The notes under the pieces were generated by a model. It searched no databases and was not told the origin of the DNA. It was given only the letters and a program-made list of their open reading frames with translations. Positions 2,689 to 22,564 of a DNA stretch of 31,101 nucleotides are shown here, in pieces (the stretch's first letter is position 1; the number at the start of each line of letters is the position of its first letter). Made by a program: the position numbers and the translations under genes. Where the stretch lies: positions 1 to 31,101 of IMG/VR virus record IMGVR_UViG_3300034073_003624. The stretch is one strand, 5' to 3'. The DNA is from a virus.

Positions 2689-3242
2689 TCCGCGCCCAGC
2701 TCGATGCCCGCGGCGCCCGCGTGCAGCTGGACGACCTGGCGCGCAACGCACTGCCCCAGGCCGTGGCCCGCGCGCTGAACCGCACGGCCACGTCGGCCCG
2801 GGCCGAGGTGATCCGCCGCATCCGCCGCGAGCTGCCCATCAGCGCGCGCAGCCTGCGGGGCCGGCTGCGGCTGTTTCGCGCGCAGCGTCTGCGCCTGCAG
2901 GCCAGTGTGCGCGCCACGCGCGACTACGACCCGCCGCTGGGCCTGTTCTCGCCCAGGTGGAGGCAGCGCCAGCCGGTGGGGGCCACCATCAAGCTGCCCG
3001 GGCGCGCGCGCCAGGCGGTGCCGGGCGCTTTCGTCGCGCGGACGAGCTACGGGCGCGAGGCGGTGTTCCGTCGCGTGGGGCGCGAGCGGCGGCCCATCAA
3101 GTTCCTGAGGGCCTCCGACGTCGGGGCGCCGACGGTGTCGGCGTCGTTCCTCCAGGCGCTGGCCGACGGCGCCGTGGTGGGTCGGGCGCAGGCGCGGTTC
3201 GCCCGCGAGATCGAGGCCGAGATGAGGTTCCGCCGTGGCTGA
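2685..3242 (+). CDS. Minor tail protein Z-like
   Basis: A 185-residue, very arginine-rich protein beginning at an ATGA overlap with the chaperone frame. The N-terminal part (ARALNRTATSARAEVIRRIRRELPI) matches the usual start of Minor_tail_Z family proteins, where a helix with an N-R-T core is followed by basic helices. The C-terminal helix (GRAQARFAREIEAEMRFR) is also typical. In lambda, Z helps make tails competent to join heads. Here the gene sits between the chaperone and the tape measure instead of next to the head-tail connectors. It overlaps the tape-measure start by eight bases. Confidence 0.65.
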   Translation: MIRAQLDARGARVQLDDLARNALPQAVARALNRTATSARAEVIRRIRRELPISARSLRGRLRLFRAQRLRLQASVRATRDYDPPLGLFSPRWRQRQPVGATIKLPGRARQAVPGAFVARTSYGREAVFRRVGRERRPIKFLRASDVGAPTVSASFLQALADGAVVGRAQARFAREIEAEMRFRRG

Positions 3243-5187
3243 GGCCCGTCTCACACTCACCGCCGTCGACCAGACCCGGGCGGCGTTCGACTCGGTCAAG
3301 CGCAACCTCAGCGACGTCGAGCGCACCGCCTCGGCCCTGGGCTCGGTGCTGGCCGGCATCGGGGCCGGGCTGTCGGCCGGTGCGCTGGTGGGCTTCGCCC
3401 GCCAGGCCATCGACGCGGCGGACAACCTCGGCAAGCTCAGCCAACGCGTCGGCGTGGCGGTGGAAAGCCTCGCCGAGCTGCAGTACGCGGGCAAGCTGGC
3501 CGATGTGACGACCGAGCAGCTTGGCGACGCCCTGCGCAAGCTGTCGGTCAACCTGCAGGCCGCGGCGGGCGGAGCAAAGGAGTTTCAGGGCGCGTTCGCG
3601 GCCGTGGGCATCTCGGCGGCCGAGCTGCGCAACATCGGCGCCGATGCGGCCGTTGCGCGCATCGCCGATGCCTTTGCCCGCACCGAGGACGGCGCGGCGA
3701 AGACGGCGCTGGCCGTGCGCCTGTTCGGCCGCACGGGGTCGGACCTCATCCCGCTGCTCAACCAGGGCTCGGCCGGGCTGCGGGCCGCCGGTGACGAGGC
3801 GCGGCGCTTCGGCCTGGTCATCACCGCCGATGCGGCCCGGGCCGCCGAGCAGTTCAACGACGACATCACGCGCCTGCAGGCCAGTGCCTCGGGCCTGGGC
3901 ATCGCGCTGGCCAACCGCGTCTTGCCCAGCCTAACGGCGTTTACCGCGCAGCTGCTGGAGGGGCAGAGGATCTTCGGCTCGTTCTCCTCGGCACTGCTCA
4001 ACATCGGCGTCGGGGTCGACCCGTTCAAGAGCTTGGCGGAGAACATCAAGGGCGCGCGCCAGGAGCTCGAGCTGCTGGAGCGCAAGCGGGCCAACTCGGC
4101 CAGCGAGGGCAACCGCAACCTCGGCGGCTTCGACCGCGAGATCGAGCGGCAGCGCAAGGTGCTGGAGTTCCTGCAGTTCCAGCAGCGCCAGCGCATCGAC
4201 ACCAGCGGCACGAGCGGACTCGACGCCCGCGACCTGCAACTGCGCCAGGCGCAGCAGCAGCCCCGCCAGCAGCTGAACTTTGCCGAGCAGGCCACCCGCG
4301 CCGCCCGTGCCCAGTCCGACGCCCTGACCGACGCCGAGCAGGCCGCGCTCACCCTGCAGCGCGCGCGTGACCGCGAGTTCGAGGCCAGCCTCGACGCCAT
4401 CGCCCGATCGCGCGAGCAGGCGCAGGCGGACTTCCTCCGCCGCTTCGAGGAGGGCAACCAGCTCGACCTTGAGGCCGCGCAGCGCCAGGCGCAGACCATC
4501 GAGCGCCTGCTCAGCGGCACCCGCACCGGGCAGGAGCAGGAGGCCCTGGGCGACATCGAGGCGCTCAACCAGGCGCTGGTGGTGGGGCGCATCAATGCGG
4601 AGCAGTACGAGGAGGCGTACGCGACGATTCAGACGCGGCTGAATGACATTCGCGGCGTGGCGCGTGATACCTTCCAGGCGCTTGCGGACGATGGCACCGC
4701 CGCGCTGCGCGACATCCGGTTCGCGGTCGAGGGCTGGGGGCGGGATTTCACCGAGACCCTGGCCAGCGCCATCGAGACGGGCAAGCTGCGCTTCTCCGAC
4801 CTGGTGGAGTCGGTCTTGTCGGACCTGCTGCGGCTGCAGATCCAGGCCTCGATCACGCGGCCGTTGTTCGATGCGCTGCAGGGGTTCGGTGCAAGCGTGT
4901 TCGGCTCCGGCGGCCGCGCGCCGGCGGGTGGCGCATCGTTTGGCGGGGCGCGGGCCGCCGGCGGGCCGGTGACGGCTGGCACCGCGTACCTGGTGGGCGA
5001 GCGCGGGCCTGAGCTGTTTGTCCCGCGCCAGTCGGGCGCGATCACGCCCAACAACGCCCTGGCGCCCAGCATCACGCAAAACGTCTACGTGGATGCGCGC
5101 TCCGACGTGGCCACGGTGCGCGACGCCGTGCGCCAGGCGGTGCGCATGGCGCAGTCCGAAATGGGCCGCGCTGCGGTGAGGGGCTGA
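3235..5187 (+). CDS. Tail tape measure protein
   Basis: A 650-residue protein starting at GTG 3235, with a GAGG site 10 bases before it, inside the end of the preceding gene. Residues ~35-60 are a Gly/Ala-rich hydrophobic segment (ALGSVLAGIGAGLSAGAL), which tape measures use in DNA injection. Long helical stretches rich in Gln, Arg and Glu follow at ~270-470 and suggest coiled coil. The C-terminal ~90 residues are Gly/Ala-rich and include YLVGERGPELFVP, a common motif near the end of tape measures. At roughly 1.5 angstrom per residue the tail would be about 100 nm, short for the group; this is inference. No muralytic motif is seen. Confidence 0.9.
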   Translation: MAEARLTLTAVDQTRAAFDSVKRNLSDVERTASALGSVLAGIGAGLSAGALVGFARQAIDAADNLGKLSQRVGVAVESLAELQYAGKLADVTTEQLGDALRKLSVNLQAAAGGAKEFQGAFAAVGISAAELRNIGADAAVARIADAFARTEDGAAKTALAVRLFGRTGSDLIPLLNQGSAGLRAAGDEARRFGLVITADAARAAEQFNDDITRLQASASGLGIALANRVLPSLTAFTAQLLEGQRIFGSFSSALLNIGVGVDPFKSLAENIKGARQELELLERKRANSASEGNRNLGGFDREIERQRKVLEFLQFQQRQRIDTSGTSGLDARDLQLRQAQQQPRQQLNFAEQATRAARAQSDALTDAEQAALTLQRARDREFEASLDAIARSREQAQADFLRRFEEGNQLDLEAAQRQAQTIERLLSGTRTGQEQEALGDIEALNQALVVGRINAEQYEEAYATIQTRLNDIRGVARDTFQALADDGTAALRDIRFAVEGWGRDFTETLASAIETGKLRFSDLVESVLSDLLRLQIQASITRPLFDALQGFGASVFGSGGRAPAGGASFGGARAAGGPVTAGTAYLVGERGPELFVPRQSGAITPNNALAPSITQNVYVDARSDVATVRDAVRQAVRMAQSEMGRAAVRG

Positions 5188-5188
5188 C

Positions 5189-5791
5189 ATGACAACGCTG
5201 GCCTGGCCTACCCTGTCGCGGCTGCCAAGCGCGCAGACGTGGACGCTGATCGCCAACACGCAGGTGCACGTCTCGCCGATCTCCGGCGTGGCGCAGACGC
5301 AACGCCTGGGCGGCGCGCTCTGGGCGACGACGATCACCTACGCCAACGTGCTCGAGGCCGATGCCGCCCTGCTGCAGGCGCTGCTGGTCTCGCTCGAGGG
5401 CAAGGCCGGCCGGGTGAATGTGCCGTGCTTCGGCCAGCGTCGGCCGCGCGGCACGATCAGCGGCTCGCCGCTGGTCAAGGGCGCGGTGCTGGCCGGCGCG
5501 ACGCAGATCAGCATCGACAACGTGACGCCCGGGCAGACCCTGCTGGCAAACGACCTCATCGGCATCGGCGGGCGCATCTACATGTGCAAGTCCGCCGTGA
5601 CGGCCGACGGCAGCGGCACCATGGCCGTGACGGTGGGGCCGGCCACGCGGGCCGCCATTGCGGACAACGCCGCCGTGACGCTGATCGGCCCCACCACGAA
5701 GATGATGCTGGTGGACGACCGCCAGAGCTGGGAGTTTGCGCCGGGCCGGGTGCGCACGCTCACGCTCGATCTCATCGAGGCGCTGCCGTGA
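5189..5791 (+). CDS. Distal tail protein (Dit/gpM-like)
   Basis: A 200-residue protein directly after the tape measure. It is beta-rich. Its first ~80 residues end with a motif (GRVNVPCFGQRRPRGT) and the last 30 (DDRQSWEFAPGRVRTLTLDLIEALP) form a final strand pair, a layout common in tail proteins that start the baseplate after the tape measure. A Gly/Thr-rich middle domain (~90-160) looks like an inserted beta domain. Function rests mainly on gene order. It overlaps the next gene by GTGA. Confidence 0.6.
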   Translation: MTTLAWPTLSRLPSAQTWTLIANTQVHVSPISGVAQTQRLGGALWATTITYANVLEADAALLQALLVSLEGKAGRVNVPCFGQRRPRGTISGSPLVKGAVLAGATQISIDNVTPGQTLLANDLIGIGGRIYMCKSAVTADGSGTMAVTVGPATRAAIADNAAVTLIGPTTKMMLVDDRQSWEFAPGRVRTLTLDLIEALP

Positions 5792-6459
5792 GAGCCATGA
5801 CCGCGGCCGCGGCCACGCGGCTGCAGGCCGCCTCGGTGGATCTGCTGGTGTTCATCCAGCTGGACCTGCCCTCGGGCGTGGTGCGGGTGTGTTCCGACGC
5901 GATCACGCGGCAGTGGGCCGGCAACCAGTGGCTGGGCGGCGCGGCGTTCACCGCGCTGCAGCCGATCGACGAGACCAGCAGCCCGAGCGCAGCGGCGCTG
6001 TCGTTGTCGTTCTCCGGCATCGACACGGGGTTCGTCGCCGCGATCCTCGGAGACGACTACCAGGGCCGGATCGCTTCGATCTGGATCGCCCCACTGGACG
6101 ACGCCGGGGTGCCGGTGGAAGACCCGGTACTGGTGTTCTCTGGGCTCATCGATTCGCCGGTCATCGAGATCGGCGCCACCGCTACGGTGGTGCTCAACCT
6201 CGAGAACCGCTGGTCCACCTGGAACACAGCGCGCACCCGGCGCTACAACTCCGCCGACCAGGTGGCCGAGTTTGCCGGAGACAAGGGTTTTGACTACATC
6301 GAGTCCATCGAGCAGGCCGAGCTGGTGTGGGGCACGTTCAAGGGCCCGCCCGCGCCGACGCCGAGCTTCATCCAGAAGGGCATGACGGGCTTCTTCAACG
6401 CCGTCAACCAGGTCGGCAACCAGATCGGCGATGCCATCGCCGACGTGTTTGGGTGGTGA
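5788..6459 (+). CDS. Tail hub / minor tail protein (gpL-like position)
   Basis: A 223-residue protein. GTG 5788 is chosen over ATG 5797 because it overlaps the upstream stop and has GAGG at a seven-base distance. The N-terminal two thirds are beta-rich (LSLSFSGIDTGFVAAILGD, VFSGLIDSPVIEIGATATVVLNLEN) and resemble tail-tip hub proteins encoded between Dit and J. The motif WNTARTRRYNSADQ near residue 150 is reminiscent of a conserved segment in this class. The C-terminal 40 residues are Gly/Phe-rich and amphipathic. No NlpC/P60 peptidase gene follows, unlike lambda K. Confidence 0.6.
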   Translation: MRAMTAAAATRLQAASVDLLVFIQLDLPSGVVRVCSDAITRQWAGNQWLGGAAFTALQPIDETSSPSAAALSLSFSGIDTGFVAAILGDDYQGRIASIWIAPLDDAGVPVEDPVLVFSGLIDSPVIEIGATATVVLNLENRWSTWNTARTRRYNSADQVAEFAGDKGFDYIESIEQAELVWGTFKGPPAPTPSFIQKGMTGFFNAVNQVGNQIGDAIADVFGW

Positions 6460-17060: not shown

Positions 17061-17089
17061 TTGCGTCGAAGGACAAGCATTGCTAGTCT
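17061..17089 (+). promoter_or_regulatory. Rightward promoter with operator over the -10
   Basis: TTGCGT (17061-17066) and TAGTCT (17084-17089) are 17 bases apart. The operator GACAAGCA-T-TGCTAGTC at 17072-17088 covers the spacer and -10. The expected transcription start falls at about 17095-17097, the ATG of the Cro-like gene, so its first message may be leaderless. A half operator TGCTAAT is also seen at 17026-17032. Confidence 0.6.
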
Positions 17090-17096
17090 TCGGCCC

Positions 17097-17387
17097 ATGA
17101 AACTTCGTTCCTACCTCATGCAGAAGGGTCTCGGGCAGCGGCAGTTCGCCCGGATGTTGGGCGTAACGCAGGGGGCCGTGGCCCACTGGCTGGCGGGCCG
17201 CATCCCGGTGTCTGCCGAGCGCGCGATGCAGATCGAGCGGCTGACGGGCGGCGCAGTGACGGCCGCGGAGCTGCGCCCGGACCTCGATTGGCCCCAGTGT
17301 TCTCCTCCCTCTGCGGTTCTCCGCAGTTCCGTGGCCCACCCGGCACCCCCTCCGGGTGGGCCATCTTTTTCGGGAGCGCAGGAGTGA
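17097..17387 (+). CDS. Cro / YdaS-like regulator
   Basis: A 96-residue protein. ATG 17097 is the natural start of the domain: MKLRSYLMQKGLGQRQFARMLGVTQGAVAHWLAGRIPVSAERAMQIERLTGG (read in parts) is a YdaS/Cro-type HTH whose recognition helix is TQGAVAHWL. No ribosome site stands before the ATG, which agrees with a leaderless message. The last ~30 residues are Pro/Ser-rich and are read through a terminator hairpin at 17332-17370; they may be a by-product. It would turn off the repressor and early genes in lytic growth. Confidence 0.75.
   Translation: MKLRSYLMQKGLGQRQFARMLGVTQGAVAHWLAGRIPVSAERAMQIERLTGGAVTAAELRPDLDWPQCSPPSAVLRSSVAHPAPPPGGPSFSGAQE
17311..17326 (+). other. Short hairpin before terminator (boxB-like?)
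   Basis: A perfect six-base stem CTGCGG TTCT CCGCAG, six bases before the terminator stem. Such a small hairpin right before a terminator could be an antitermination or attenuation element. It may instead be a chance effect of high GC. Confidence 0.35.
17332..17370 (+). terminator. Intrinsic terminator inside the end of the Cro-like gene
   Basis: A perfect 12-base stem (17332-17343 and 17352-17363) with an eight-base loop, followed by TCTTTTT. It lies before the stop codon of the Cro-like gene and before the helicase operon, in the position of lambda tR1. Expression of the downstream genes would then need readthrough or antitermination. Confidence 0.75.
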
Positions 17388-17614
17388 GGCCGCCGAAGGT
17401 GGACGGGCAGCGGCAGTTCCGCCAGGGTGACCGGGTGCGGACGCCTACGGGGTTGCTGGGCACGGTGCTGGGCTACAGCGCGGACCGGGTGTCGGTCCGC
17501 TATGACGCACGGCCGGAGTGGCAGCTGCTGGGGCGTGACGGCGGGCGGGTGACGGCGGAGGCCGTGGAGGTGTGCCTGCAGGAAGGGTTGTTGCGACGTG
17601 TCTGGCGCAAATGA
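17384..17614 (+). CDS. SH3/KOW-like small protein
   Basis: A 76-residue protein from a GTG in a GTGA overlap; GGGAG stands seven bases before it. FRQGDRVRTPTGLLGTVLGYSADRVSVRYDARPEW is a typical small beta-barrel with a hydrophobic Gly-x-Val turn, as in KOW or SH3-like nucleic-acid-binding units. The C-terminal helix (EAVEVCLQEGLLRRVW) is amphipathic. It may help transcription or replication, but a direct role is only inference. Confidence 0.65.
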   Translation: MRPPKVDGQRQFRQGDRVRTPTGLLGTVLGYSADRVSVRYDARPEWQLLGRDGGRVTAEAVEVCLQEGLLRRVWRK

Positions 17615-18113
17615 CCGAGAGCCGAGCGGAGCGCGCTGGCTGCTGCGGCAGCGATGGGCCGGGCGTCACATCGACCAGGTGGTGGTGTTGTTTAGCCGCA
17701 CATGGTCGCAGCCGGCGCCAGGCGAACACCGGCTCTTCGTGCGCTCGAGCTCCTGGCAGGCGGGCGCGTTGGATTGGCGATGCGTCACGGACCTGCGGGT
17801 GCGGGTGGTGGATGACGACCCGACGTTCGCCCCGGACGGCTGGCCCTGGTCGCTGCACCTGGCGGCGGAGATTTGCGATTGCGCGGCGGTGGTGCATCTG
17901 GTCACGCCGATCGAGCTCTACGACGACGGCCGGCGGTTCGTTGACCCACAGCAGCTGGCCTGGGAGTGCATCGAGGCTGGCGAGACGCCCAGCTGGTGGC
18001 CGGCGCGCCGGAGCGTGACGCACGATGTCCGCCGAGATCGATTCCGCGCCCGAGAAGCCGTCCGACGAGGATGGGATCGTCGCCCCGACGTTCGAGCAGG
18101 CCTACCCCGATGA
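17598..18113 (+). CDS. Unknown protein before VirE-like helicase
   Basis: A 171-residue protein from GTG 17598, 17 bases inside the end of the previous gene. Residues ~20-130 read as a real globular domain with Trp-rich strands (HIDQVVVLFSRTW, RVRVVDDDPTFAPDGWPWSLHLAAEI). The last ~30 residues are Arg-rich and overlap the next gene by 89 bases, longer than any other overlap here, so either this end or the helicase start may be misjudged. No family is recognised. Its position suggests a partner of replication. Confidence 0.6.
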   Translation: MSGANDREPSGARWLLRQRWAGRHIDQVVVLFSRTWSQPAPGEHRLFVRSSSWQAGALDWRCVTDLRVRVVDDDPTFAPDGWPWSLHLAAEICDCAAVVHLVTPIELYDDGRRFVDPQQLAWECIEAGETPSWWPARRSVTHDVRRDRFRAREAVRRGWDRRPDVRAGLPR

Positions 18114-19338
18114 TCTGGACGCACGGCTGCGTCGCAACGACAAAGGCTCGGTTCAGGCCTCGCTGCTTAACTGCGTGGCGATCCTCGAAGGCCACGAGGA
18201 GTGGCAGGGGGTGATCGCCTATGACCAGTTCGCCGGGCGCGTAGTGAAGCGCCGGCCGGGGCCGCATGGCCTCGGCAGGGGCGAGTGGACGGACATTGAC
18301 GACATCCGGGCGACGATCTGGCTGTCGACGCACTACGGAATCGAGCCGAAGCTGCAGGTGCTGATGGCGGCTGTTCAGGCCGTGGCGGAGGCACATGCGT
18401 TCCACGAGCTGCGTGATTACCTGCGCGGCCTGGAATGGGACGGCATCCCCCGCGTGAAGCAGCACGGGTGGCTCCACGTCTACTGCGGCGCCGAGTCGTC
18501 TGAATACCACCGACTTGCCGGGCTTAAGTGGCTGGTCTCAGCCGTCGCCAGGGGGCTGCGTGACGATCAGACTAAGGCCGATGGCGTGCTGGTCCTCGAG
18601 GGGCCGCAGGGCATCGGGAAGTCGACGCTGCTGCGCATTCTGTTCTCACCCTGGTTCACAGACAGTCCGATCCGCCTGGGCGATCGCGAGGCGGCCATGG
18701 TGATCCGCGGACGTTGGGGCGTGGAGCTCGGCGAGCTCGATGCGTTCAATCGGGCGGAGTCGACGACCGCGAAAAACTTCTTTTCACAGTCCGAGGATCG
18801 ATACCGCTCTCCCTGGGGCAAACGCCCTGCCGACGTGCGCCGCAGCTGCGTCTTCGCGGGCACCACAAATGAATCGTTGTGGATGAAGGATCAGACCGGC
18901 AACAGGCGCTATTGGCCTGTCGCCATCTCGCGCGTCGACAGGGACGAGCTGCGCGCAGATCGGGACCAGCTTTGGGCCGAGGCCGTGTGGCTATTCAACC
19001 AAGGCACGCCGTGGCACGTATCGGACGAGGAACAGCCGCTGTTCGATGAGGCTCAGGGCAGCCGATTGATTCGGGATGCGTACGAGGAGCGCATCGAGGA
19101 CTGGCTCGATGAGCAGCGGCGGGCCGGCGAGCGCCAGGTGCGCATGAGCCAGATCCTCGGCCAGGCGTTGGGTCTGGACACCGGGAAGTGGACACGTGTG
19201 GAGCAGACCCGTGTCGGCCAGGTGATGTCTCGGGTGCGCGGCTGGGAGCGCAAGCGGATTCGGAGTGGGGAGCGATTGGAGTACGTGTACGTGTTCGTGG
19301 GCGCGCGCGAAGTGACGTCTGACGAGGTGCCGCTGTGA
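18025..19338 (+). CDS. VirE-family (virulence-associated E) replicative helicase/primase-like ATPase
   Basis: A 437-residue protein. Residues 193-201 are a Walker A loop (GPQGIGKST); GVELGELDAF at ~228-237 is the Walker B region; a sensor segment FAGTTNESLW lies near 275 and NRRYWPV follows. This set is the VirE / superfamily 3-like ATPase used by many temperate phages for DNA replication. There is no toprim or primase motif in the N-terminal 100 residues. A repeat-rich gap directly after it (19339-19514) is a likely origin. Confidence 0.9.
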   Translation: MSAEIDSAPEKPSDEDGIVAPTFEQAYPDDLDARLRRNDKGSVQASLLNCVAILEGHEEWQGVIAYDQFAGRVVKRRPGPHGLGRGEWTDIDDIRATIWLSTHYGIEPKLQVLMAAVQAVAEAHAFHELRDYLRGLEWDGIPRVKQHGWLHVYCGAESSEYHRLAGLKWLVSAVARGLRDDQTKADGVLVLEGPQGIGKSTLLRILFSPWFTDSPIRLGDREAAMVIRGRWGVELGELDAFNRAESTTAKNFFSQSEDRYRSPWGKRPADVRRSCVFAGTTNESLWMKDQTGNRRYWPVAISRVDRDELRADRDQLWAEAVWLFNQGTPWHVSDEEQPLFDEAQGSRLIRDAYEERIEDWLDEQRRAGERQVRMSQILGQALGLDTGKWTRVEQTRVGQVMSRVRGWERKRIRSGERLEYVYVFVGAREVTSDEVPL

Positions 19339-19514
19339 GGTGGGAACAAGGTGGGAACGGAATTCCTCTGAGAAATCCACGCGTGTTCCTACGTTCCTAC
19401 CGTTCCTACCTGTTTGCGCTCACGTACGCGTGCGCGAGCGGATGAGTGGTCAATCGCGCGCGCTCGCGTGCGCATATATATAGAAGTAGGTAGGAACAGT
19501 AGGAACGTAGGAAC
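19339..19514. repeat. Iteron-like dyad, candidate replication origin
   Basis: Two direct GGTGGGAAC (19339-19347, 19350-19358) come first. Then three GTTCCTAC (19385, 19393 and 19402), and, 80 bases on, three complements GTAGGAAC (19490, 19499 and 19507) with mirrored spacing of eight and nine bases. The 28-base arms differ at one position. Inside them is a CGCGAGCG/CGCTCGCG pair (19433-19440 and 19461-19468) and an ATATATATA tract (19474-19482). It follows the helicase gene and has no gene of its own. An origin is the best guess. The last repeat also provides the ribosome site (AGGAA) of the next gene. Confidence 0.65.
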
Positions 19515-19516
19515 AA

Positions 19517-19849
19517 ATGGCCAACAACCTCCGATCTGAAATGCCGACGGTCGCTGCGTGGATTGATGAACTCCGCGAGGTGTTTGGTGCGGCCTCGATC
19601 AACCAGTCGATACGAGACGGACTGCAACCCGGTGTGCGGACTCCCCTCGGCTTCTTCGCAGAGGAGGGCGGCCACGTGCTGGGCCAGCCCAACGACATGA
19701 GCACCGCGCGCGTGGCTGTCGTGATTGATCACGGGTCCTCCCCAGACATGAACGACTGCGAGCGAAAAGCCCGCGAAAAAAAGCTAGTGGCAGAACTTGG
19801 TCGGAGTGACCGACGGACCCGGTCACGGTCCGGTCGGCGGTCGGCATGA
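19517..19849 (+). CDS. Small phage protein preceding the terminase
   Basis: A 110-residue protein from ATG 19517; its ribosome site is the last GTAGGAAC repeat of the origin-like dyad. The N-terminal ~60 residues (MPTVAAWIDELREVFGAASINQSIRDGL, FFAEEGGHVLG) are a pattern I recognise from small genes before terminases in proteobacterial phages, with no known job. The C-terminal 25 residues are very basic (SDRRTRSRSGRRSA) and may bind DNA or RNA. It overlaps the terminase small-subunit gene by ATGA. Confidence 0.65.
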   Translation: MANNLRSEMPTVAAWIDELREVFGAASINQSIRDGLQPGVRTPLGFFAEEGGHVLGQPNDMSTARVAVVIDHGSSPDMNDCERKAREKKLVAELGRSDRRTRSRSGRRSA

Positions 19850-20409
19850 ACCTGCCACCCGGCTACGCGCCGATCCGGGCCACGGCTCGCCTGCTCGGCT
19901 GCTCGCATCCGACGCTGATCGACGCCCTCAACACGGGGCGGATCCCAGAGGCAGCGTGCGTGCGGGGCCCCAAAGGGCAGCGCATCGGCCTGCACATCGA
20001 GCAGGCGCGCCTGGCCATGGTCGAGAACACGGACCCAGCTCAGAGCGCGCGCAAGGGGCTGAACTGGGACGCCGTGCCTCCTCAGGGCGTGGCGCCGGCC
20101 GCGGTGCCGGCCGAGGCCGAGGGCGCGTCCTACAGCGAGGCGCGGGCCGAGCGGGAGCGGGCGCAGGCGGCGCTGGCCCAGCTCGACCTGGCGAAGCAGC
20201 TCGGCCAGGTGGTGCTGGCCGAAACCGTGGCCAAAGGAGCTGCGGCTGCAGCTCGGGCGACGCGCGATGCCCTGCTGTCGATCCCCGACCGGGTGGCGGC
20301 GCTGGTGGCGGCGGAGACGGACCCCGCGCGCGTGCACGCCATCCTGAGCAACGAACTCCGACAGGCCTTGCATGGGCTCGCCGACAGACTTGCCGCTGAG
20401 CCTGGTTGA
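19846..20409 (+). CDS. Terminase small subunit, Nu1-like
   Basis: A 187-residue protein. The N-terminal ~55 residues (APIRATARLLGCSHPTLIDALNTGRIP) form a winged-helix DNA-binding unit of the Nu1 type. A coiled segment rich in Ala, Glu and Arg follows (~90-130). The C-terminal RATRDALLSIPDRVAALVAAETDPARVHAILSNEL region (in parts) is a known feature of these subunits and contacts the large subunit. It would recognise the packaging site in phage DNA. It overlaps the large subunit by 38 bases. Confidence 0.8.
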   Translation: MNLPPGYAPIRATARLLGCSHPTLIDALNTGRIPEAACVRGPKGQRIGLHIEQARLAMVENTDPAQSARKGLNWDAVPPQGVAPAAVPAEAEGASYSEARAERERAQAALAQLDLAKQLGQVVLAETVAKGAAAAARATRDALLSIPDRVAALVAAETDPARVHAILSNELRQALHGLADRLAAEPG

Positions 20410-22564
20410 GCGCATCGCCGCCGGCGAGCGCGTTTACCTCGAGGCGTGGGCCGAGGGGATCCGGCCGGACCGCGAGTTCACGGTGAGCGAGTGGGCGGAC
20501 GAGCATCGCATGCTGTCGCCGGTCTCGTCTGCCGAGCCCGGGCGGTGGCGCACGGAGCGGACGCCCTACCTGCGCGAGATCATGGACGTGCTGTCGGCCA
20601 CGCATCCGTGCACGGAGGTGACCTTCGTCAAGGGTACGCAGATCGGCGGCAGCGAGGCTGGCTACAACTGGCTCGGGGCCGTCATGCATCTGTGGCCGGG
20701 CCCGACGATGCTAGTGATGCCGACGACCGACACCGCCAAGCGGATCAGCAAGCAGCGCCTGGCGCCGATGATCGACATCTGCCCCGTGCTGCGCGACCGG
20801 GTGCAGGACAACCGCTCGCGGGACTCGGGCAACACCCTGCAGATGAAGGAATTCCCTGGCGGCGTGCTCATCTTGACCGGGGCAAACAGCGGCCCGGGCC
20901 TGCGCTCGATGCCTGTGCGCTACCTCATGCTGGACGAGGTCGACGCCTATCCCGTTGACGTGGGCGGCGAGGGGGACCCGTGCATCGTTGCGGAAAAGCG
21001 GACCGAGACCTTCGCCCGGAGGAAGATCTTTCGCGTGAGCTCGCCCAAGCTCAAGGCGACAAGCCGCATCGAGCGGTTCTGGGAGCAGTCGGACCAGCGC
21101 CGTTATCACGTGCCGTGCCCGCATTGTGGCCACGAACAGTGGCTCAAATGGGGCCAGATGCGCTGGGAAACGCGCAAGACCTGGGAGGTCACGGCCGAAG
21201 ACACGGGCGAAGTGCTCGAATGCAGCCCCGATGCGCCTGGTGCGGTCGAGCGCGACACCGGCGAGCTGGTGGACGTCCACTACGAGTGCGAGGCCTGCGA
21301 GGGCCGCATCGAGGAGTGGCACAAGCCCGACATCCTCGCGCGCGGCCGGTGGATCGCTGCACGACCTGGTGGTGGCAGGCATCCGGGCTTTCACCTGTCC
21401 GCGCTGTACAGCCCCCTCGGCTGGTTCTCCTGGCGCTCGGCGGTCAAACAATTCCTCGAGGCCGAGGGGGACATCACCGGCGAGCTGCTGCAGGTGTTCA
21501 CGAACACCGTACTCGGCGAGGCCTACGACGACGCCGGCGAGCAGGTCGACGACCAGGTGCTGAGACAGCACGTGGGCGACTACCGCGTCGGCGGGCCGGT
21601 GCCGGCCGGGGCGCTGGTGCTCACCTGCGGCGTCGACGTCCAGCACGACCGCCTCGAGGCGCGGGTCTGGGGCTGGGGGCGGGGTGAGGAATCGTGGCTG
21701 ATCGCGCGCGAGGTGCTGTTTGGCGACCCCGCTGTCGACAGCACCTGGACCGCTCTGGACGAGCTGCTGTTCCGCGGGTGGCCGCACGCCTGCGGCGGCA
21801 CCTTGCGCATCAGCGCCACGGCCATCGATGCCTCCGACGGCAACACCACCCACTACGTGCGCAGCTACACACGCGCGCGCCAGGCGCGGCATGTGATCGC
21901 CATCAAGGGGCAGGCCGCACCGGGCAAGCCCATCCTCGGCCGGCCCACCGAGCAGGACATCACGCACAAGGGCCGCGTGATGAAGGGCGCGGTCAAACTC
22001 TGGCCCGTGGGCTCCGACACGGCGAAGGGCGTGATCTACAAGCGGTACGAACTGAGCGAGCCCGGCCCCGGCTACGTGCACTTGCCCCAGGGCCTACCCG
22101 ACGACGAGTTCTCGCAGATGACGGCCGAGCGCGTGGTGACGAGCTATGTGAAAGGCTTCCCGCGCCGGGCGTGGGTCAAGGCCGCAGGGGCGCGCAACGA
22201 GGCGCTGGACTGCTTCGTGATGGCCCTGGCCGCGGCGCACTATGCCGGCGTCACCCGCGCCAACTGGGACCGCATCGAGCAGGCCCTGGCCCAGCCCGAC
22301 ATGTGGGCCGCCCTGCCGCCGGCACCCGCTGCGCCGCCGGCCCGCGAGGCGCACCACCACCAGGCGCACCACCACCAGGCGGAGCTTGAGCAGGCCGAGC
22401 TCCACCAGGTGGCGGCCGCCGCCGTCGAGGCGGTCGAGGCCGAGGCACCGCAGCCCGAGCTCGAGCTCGCCGCCCCAGCCGTCACGCGCGCACCCGCCGC
22501 AGCTCGCCTGCCTACACCACCGTCCGCCCCGCGACGCGGCTGGGCCACCGGCTGGCGCGCGTGA
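20372..22564 (+). CDS. terL: Terminase large subunit, lambda gpA family
   Basis: A 730-residue packaging motor. Residues 85-95 (FVKGTQIGGSE) hold the deviant Walker A of gpA proteins; 184-194 (YLMLDEVDAYP) is Walker B. Two CxxC pairs (249-252, 306-309) form a zinc-binding insert. GVDVQHDRLEARVWGW near 419-434 begins the nuclease domain with Asp421 as a metal ligand. The C-terminal ~75 residues are an unusual low-complexity tail rich in His, Gln, Glu and Ala, including two copies of an AHHHQ unit; the family is normally about 640 residues, so this is an addition. A gpA-type motor suggests cos packaging. Confidence 0.93.
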   Translation: MGSPTDLPLSLVERIAAGERVYLEAWAEGIRPDREFTVSEWADEHRMLSPVSSAEPGRWRTERTPYLREIMDVLSATHPCTEVTFVKGTQIGGSEAGYNWLGAVMHLWPGPTMLVMPTTDTAKRISKQRLAPMIDICPVLRDRVQDNRSRDSGNTLQMKEFPGGVLILTGANSGPGLRSMPVRYLMLDEVDAYPVDVGGEGDPCIVAEKRTETFARRKIFRVSSPKLKATSRIERFWEQSDQRRYHVPCPHCGHEQWLKWGQMRWETRKTWEVTAEDTGEVLECSPDAPGAVERDTGELVDVHYECEACEGRIEEWHKPDILARGRWIAARPGGGRHPGFHLSALYSPLGWFSWRSAVKQFLEAEGDITGELLQVFTNTVLGEAYDDAGEQVDDQVLRQHVGDYRVGGPVPAGALVLTCGVDVQHDRLEARVWGWGRGEESWLIAREVLFGDPAVDSTWTALDELLFRGWPHACGGTLRISATAIDASDGNTTHYVRSYTRARQARHVIAIKGQAAPGKPILGRPTEQDITHKGRVMKGAVKLWPVGSDTAKGVIYKRYELSEPGPGYVHLPQGLPDDEFSQMTAERVVTSYVKGFPRRAWVKAAGARNEALDCFVMALAAAHYAGVTRANWDRIEQALAQPDMWAALPPAPAAPPAREAHHHQAHHHQAELEQAELHQVAAAAVEAVEAEAPQPELELAAPAVTRAPAAARLPTPPSAPRRGWATGWRA

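Follow-up and report, generated by a model that had tools for sequence, protein, structure and literature searches.

Mirrored iterons downstream of vapE, very probably the replication origin of a temperate tailed phage

Introduction

The 31,101-base IMG/VR contig analysed here (the window, at its full length) carries, directly behind a gene of the VapE/VirE family, a set of short repeats arranged as mirror images, and the question raised by this locus is what these repeats do. VapE/VirE proteins are common in phages, where their annotation often reads virulence-associated, hypothetical or primase. Phage origins associated with these proteins seem to be undescribed; the literature searched contained no paper that mentions virulence-associated protein E together with iterons. 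The window encodes an integrase, a YdaS/Cro-like regulator, VapE, TerS, TerL, a portal, a major head protein, a tape measure and a tail fiber. The integrase, regulator, TerS, TerL and head and tail genes identify the DNA as that of a temperate, tailed phage rather than a satellite; PICIs lack capsid and tail genes of their own and depend on a helper, whereas TerL, portal, major head protein, tape measure and tail fiber are all encoded here.

Organization of the repeat element

Three copies of GTTCCTAC and three of its complement, GTAGGAAC, form the two main arrays, which together span 19385-19514 (Table 1). They lie in an inverted repeat with 28-nt arms (19384-19411 and 19488-19515) that are 96% complementary and have 76 nt between them; the 3 + 3 mirrored repeats, the 8/9 spacing and the 28-base dyad are exactly as the initial annotation described. 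Dinucleotide shuffling of the whole window, repeated 300 times, never yielded mirrored 3 + 3 8-mers, the maximum being 2 + 2, and an exact GTAGGAAC occurs at only one site elsewhere in the window, 17107. Two related repeats had also been claimed upstream and are indeed present as GGTGGGAAC, starting right at the vapE stop (19338); this outer pair, outside the mirrored arrays, amounts to two GTGGGAAC copies. Extra outer iteron copies, in both orientations, are seen in relatives too.

Table 1. Positions of the repeat element, its parts and neighbouring genes in the window
Feature	Position	Strand	Details
HTH regulator	17061-17387
vapE/virE, SaPI1-Rep-type hexameric initiator helicase, 437 aa	18025..19338	+	PF05272, phrog_1313, 7PDS
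C-terminal winged-helix domain of VapE (predicted), residues about 366-428	19120..19308	+	AF2 model
Two outer iteron variants GGTGGGAAC	19339..19358	+	19339-19347, 19350-19358; spacing 11
Whole mirrored element, proposed replication origin	19384..19515	.	28-nt arms
Left iteron array, 3 x GTTCCTAC	19385..19409	-	starts 19385, 19393, 19402; spacings 8, 9
Alternating purine-pyrimidine run, 16 nt, GC-rich	19421..19436	.	sequence
Alternating purine-pyrimidine run CGCGTGCGCATATATATA, 18 nt, candidate melting site	19465..19482	.	sequence
Right iteron array, 3 x GTAGGAAC	19490..19514	+	starts 19490, 19499, 19507; spacings 9, 8
TerS	19846-20409		phrog_57
TerL, GpA-type	20372-22564

The core between the arrays (19412-19487) is mostly GC-rich, with 41% AT overall, and the "AT core" of the initial annotation is therefore valid for ~17 nt only (19473-19489), the best 20-nt window being 70% AT. 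The ATATATATA tract within this stretch was located at 19474-19482, as had been noted, and the "inner GC dyad" is only 75-81% complementary. ATATATATA forms the end of CGCGTGCGCATATATATA, which is the longest alternating purine-pyrimidine run in the window. Alternating runs downstream of vapE exceed the local control mean in 75 of 78 loci, with mean lengths of 19.3 and 15.7 in two groups versus 9.3 and 9.0, and, judged from sequence, the alternating segment is a candidate for the site of melting.

Within window positions 19499-19519, only 2 nt separate the last iteron (TAGGAAC) from the ATG at 19517 with which the next ORF opens, and this iteron could also act as the Shine-Dalgarno site of that ORF. 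The 110-aa product has no family match, and a homologue (47% over 55 aa) is encoded at the equivalent place in one relative, L016.

The upstream VapE helicase

The element adjoins a VirE-type helicase gene, as originally noted, and the helicase ORF ends at 19338. The bounds first given for this gene, 17598-19338, needed correction, with the helicase gene occupying 18025-19338 and 17598-18113 being another ORF. The product matches PF05272 (E 1.4e-67) and phrog_1313, DNA helicase (E 7e-97). An AlphaFold (AF2) model built from an alignment of 74 sequences (pLDDT 90.7) has 7PDS as its best PDB match (Z 34.4, 397 residues, 26% identity), and phmmer gives E 4.6e-40 for VapE against 7PDS. That record is entitled "PriRep1 with dsDNA", with the molecule name "Similar to D. 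nodosus vapE", and its PriRep1 is from SaPI1. The next PDB matches are NrS-1 (Z 14.4) and the SaPI5 primase-helicase (Z 12.8). VapE is thus a homologue of the SaPI1 Rep family over its whole length, including the C-terminal domain. In the last ~70 residues a winged-helix fold is predicted (AF2 elements E371-373, H374-381, H391-403, E407-414 and E417-424) and, by analogy with SaPI Rep, this is proposed to be the iteron-binding domain.

No primase was found fused to VapE, and the window ORFs scanned gave no TOPRIM or AEP match. The N-terminal primase half, fused in most relatives, is absent from VapE of the window and from those of L080, L034, L088 and L021. A peptide search for near relatives of VapE found none in viral or genome contigs.

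Arrays downstream of vapE in other genomes

The arrangement was surveyed in 269 VapE loci from viral contigs and named phages, grouped into 78 clusters at 80% identity. A strict detector, demanding at least 2 copies spaced 7-13 and mirrored by at least 2 complements, found arrays downstream of vapE in 39 of the 78 clusters. The corresponding figures were 1/71 for the upstream region, 0/78 within the gene, 0/75 for a region farther downstream and 0.1% for shuffled sequence. When the requirement was at least 6 copies of one 6-mer in both orientations, arrays were present just 3' of vapE in 53 of 74 relatives, versus 2/74, 1/65 and 0/71 in the controls. The initial annotation had proposed this check, a search of VirE-type phages for such repeats after the gene, and its strongly positive outcome supports "candidate origin" as the best reading of the element. 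The arrays have 6-18 copies, sit within about 0-0.65 kb of vapE and are mirrored across their largest gap in 37 of the 53 cases (P 7e-22). A putative origin plan of this kind, with lineage-specific words, is therefore also found behind most VapE genes examined. Twenty-one of the 74 relatives fell short of 6 copies, with shorter or mixed arrays present in some on inspection. Escherichia phage Alux-21 (L278) has a 711-nt gap (3829-4539) after a remote vapE homologue with no such iterons, and so not every VapE-family gene is adjoined by an origin of this type.

Two loci have unusual features. In L085 (~3170-3410) the iteron block is tandemly repeated, in units of ~57 nt, over the interval from the vapE stop to the core, with 18 copies of GTCCCAG/CTGGGAC in total. 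Small CDS are annotated in Pseudomonas phage Haddon (L006, 5576-5933) across or beside the repeat arrays, at 5576-5701 and 5808-5933, and these are probably not genes.

An origin is not the only function that repeats at this position could have. TerS and a GpA-type (lambda-type) TerL follow within 1 kb, as in lambda, and the repeats could then be a cos or packaging site, bound by TerS and with the DNA cut in the palindromic core. This is very improbable. Across 118 relatives, most TerL matches begin 1.7-3.6 kb away from the end of vapE, whereas the arrays remain beside vapE. Phages of Bacillota and Bacteroidota have a gene for a VRR-Nuc endonuclease in the next position, and repeats are present behind vapE in a Streptococcus satellite, Javan30, as well, again in the intergenic gap. 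A lambda-type cos/cosB, which requires a site directly upstream of terS, was rejected on the same distances. An equally small chance is given to the repeats being operators, through which the YdaS/Cro-like protein, or VapE by autoregulation, would control the downstream genes. An HTH regulator is encoded nearby and the last iteron is positioned as a possible Shine-Dalgarno site, but no sigma-70-like promoter was found at 19300-19900, and the arrays, with 6-18 copies, recur after vapE and not before it, whichever gene follows. Regulation may nevertheless coexist with origin function. Least probable of all is an RNA element, a terminator or regulatory hairpin formed in the transcript by pairing of the complementary 28-nt arms. 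The arms are 76 nt apart, no terminator-like site was found there, and an Rfam scan gave no family match. Relatives carry many copies of one word, with orientation and number varying, a pattern expected of sites for a protein and not of a single stem.

Iteron words and their initiators

The iteron word varies by lineage, all copies within one origin sharing a word and changing together. Examples are GTCCCAC/GTCCTAC in Pseudomonas phage Haddon, GGTCACCCC in Marinobacter PS3, CTGCAAC in Paenibacillus Bob, GGTAACG in Acutalibacter Fontainebleau, GTAAACG in Bacteroides F2, GTATCCA in Enterococcus phiFL4A and TTGTCCC in Corynebacterium Troy; GTGGGACA is likewise the word of a relative. Such concerted change within each origin points to recognition of the words by a protein acting in trans. 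Word distance tracks VapE protein distance (Mantel r 0.37, 0/2000 permutations), but word divergence follows the C-terminal domain (0.370) no better than the helicase core (0.372), and this covariation therefore does not localise the binding domain.

The window word was also sought in viral contigs with no reference to protein, as three close copies of GTAGGAAC. Nineteen contigs contained such triples, and in 12 the array immediately follows the 3' end of a vapE homologue, every one of which is remote (about 28-42% identity to the queries). The reversed word gave 11 contigs, none with vapE adjoining the array and one with vapE ~2.6 kb off (Fisher P 0.0006). Two further contigs have the GTAGGAAC triple beside other primase-helicases, with multi-copy arrays directly 3' of a DUF927 primase/helicase (L293, 2063-4512) and of a DUF3987-like primase (L289, 3692-7030), so that this origin word is common to unrelated or distantly related initiators.

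A strong TGT/ACA half is present in the word of 30 of 53 origins, whereas column shuffling gave 9.4 on average and at most 19; the window word, GTAGGAAC(A), fits this half only partially. On balance, we favour a description of the VapE-type origin as an alternating purine-pyrimidine core plus a word with one partly constant half (TGT/ACA) and one variable half that diverges with the initiator. If this is true, phages and satellites could share, or exclude one another from, their origins by word.

Proposed initiation of replication

Taken together, these data argue that the mirrored repeats behind vapE are very probably the phage's replication origin, laid out on the staphylococcal pathogenicity island plan. 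The explanation as a whole, a theta origin that is bound by VapE and melted, and at which two helicases are loaded for bidirectional replication, is given a probability of about 0.9. The repeats, their mirrored order, their tie to vapE across lineages and the homology of the helicase to SaPI1 Rep were observed directly, and from these we infer binding, melting, loading, direction and primer source as follows. VapE, made from the gene just upstream, would use its C-terminal winged helix to bind the GTAGGAAC iterons, and the two opposed iteron groups would seat two hexamers, one on each side of the core. The alternating purine-pyrimidine/ATATATATA segment would be the first to melt, driven by ATP, with both helicases travelling outwards for bidirectional replication. 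Primers would be made by a primase, perhaps host DnaG; none was found in the window. Cumulative GC skew, an analysis suggested with the initial annotation, has no extreme at 19.4 kb and lends no support.

This reading provides a rule for locating the origin of VapE phages, namely mirrored arrays 3' of vapE, and the paired initiators and words are a resource for studying how the winged helix reads DNA and whether there is competition for origins between satellites and phages.

Comparison with known origins

The alpha protein of phage P4 is a mobile-element helicase initiator whose C-terminal domain recognises short iterons, as proposed here for VapE, although P4 has two separate sites, ori and crr. 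A lambda O-type origin, in which the initiator gene itself contains the iterons and has the gene for the DnaB loader P as its neighbour, was considered and rejected, as the iterons here are outside the initiator gene and the initiator is a self-contained helicase; no lambda O/P match was found among the ORFs scanned. Cch2 of SCCmec is also a self-loading helicase with a C-terminal domain that binds repeats just downstream of its operon (PMC7581432), but it belongs to the D5/Primase_Cterm (SaPI5 Rep) group and its repeats are three 5-nt AAGTG direct repeats and not mirrored 8-mer arrays.

The closest resemblance is to the rep-ori of PICIs and SaPIs (7PDS; PMC6092414, PMC7581432), and the arrangement, which the initial annotation did not recognise as a described phage origin, is the PICI/SaPI origin plan. 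In SaPIs, the iterons lie immediately behind the rep gene and are bound by the C-terminal domain of Rep, apparently with Rep as two hexamers (PMC7581432), and autonomous replication from rep-ori has been demonstrated for SaPI1, SaPIbov1, EfCIV583 and EcCICFT073 (PMC6092414). Common to both systems are an initiator helicase of the same family, an origin directly 3' of the rep gene and two opposed iteron sets, here 3 + 3 in a 28-nt dyad, flanking a putative melting region. The phage differs in its word, GTAGGAAC, in having no primase found in the window, and in its GC-rich core with alternating purine-pyrimidine runs, the core described for PICIs being more AT-rich than the 41% AT here. A further difference is that the carrier is a phage whose capsid, portal, terminase and tail genes are its own. 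Published work has called the layout unique to PICIs, an exclusivity that, on the present sequence comparisons, these phages suggest does not hold. As the helicase family, the position behind the rep gene and the opposed iteron sets agree with the PICI/SaPI plan, the element is very probably an origin of a known type, with a self-sufficient phage as its new setting, and this type is apparently more widely distributed than published.
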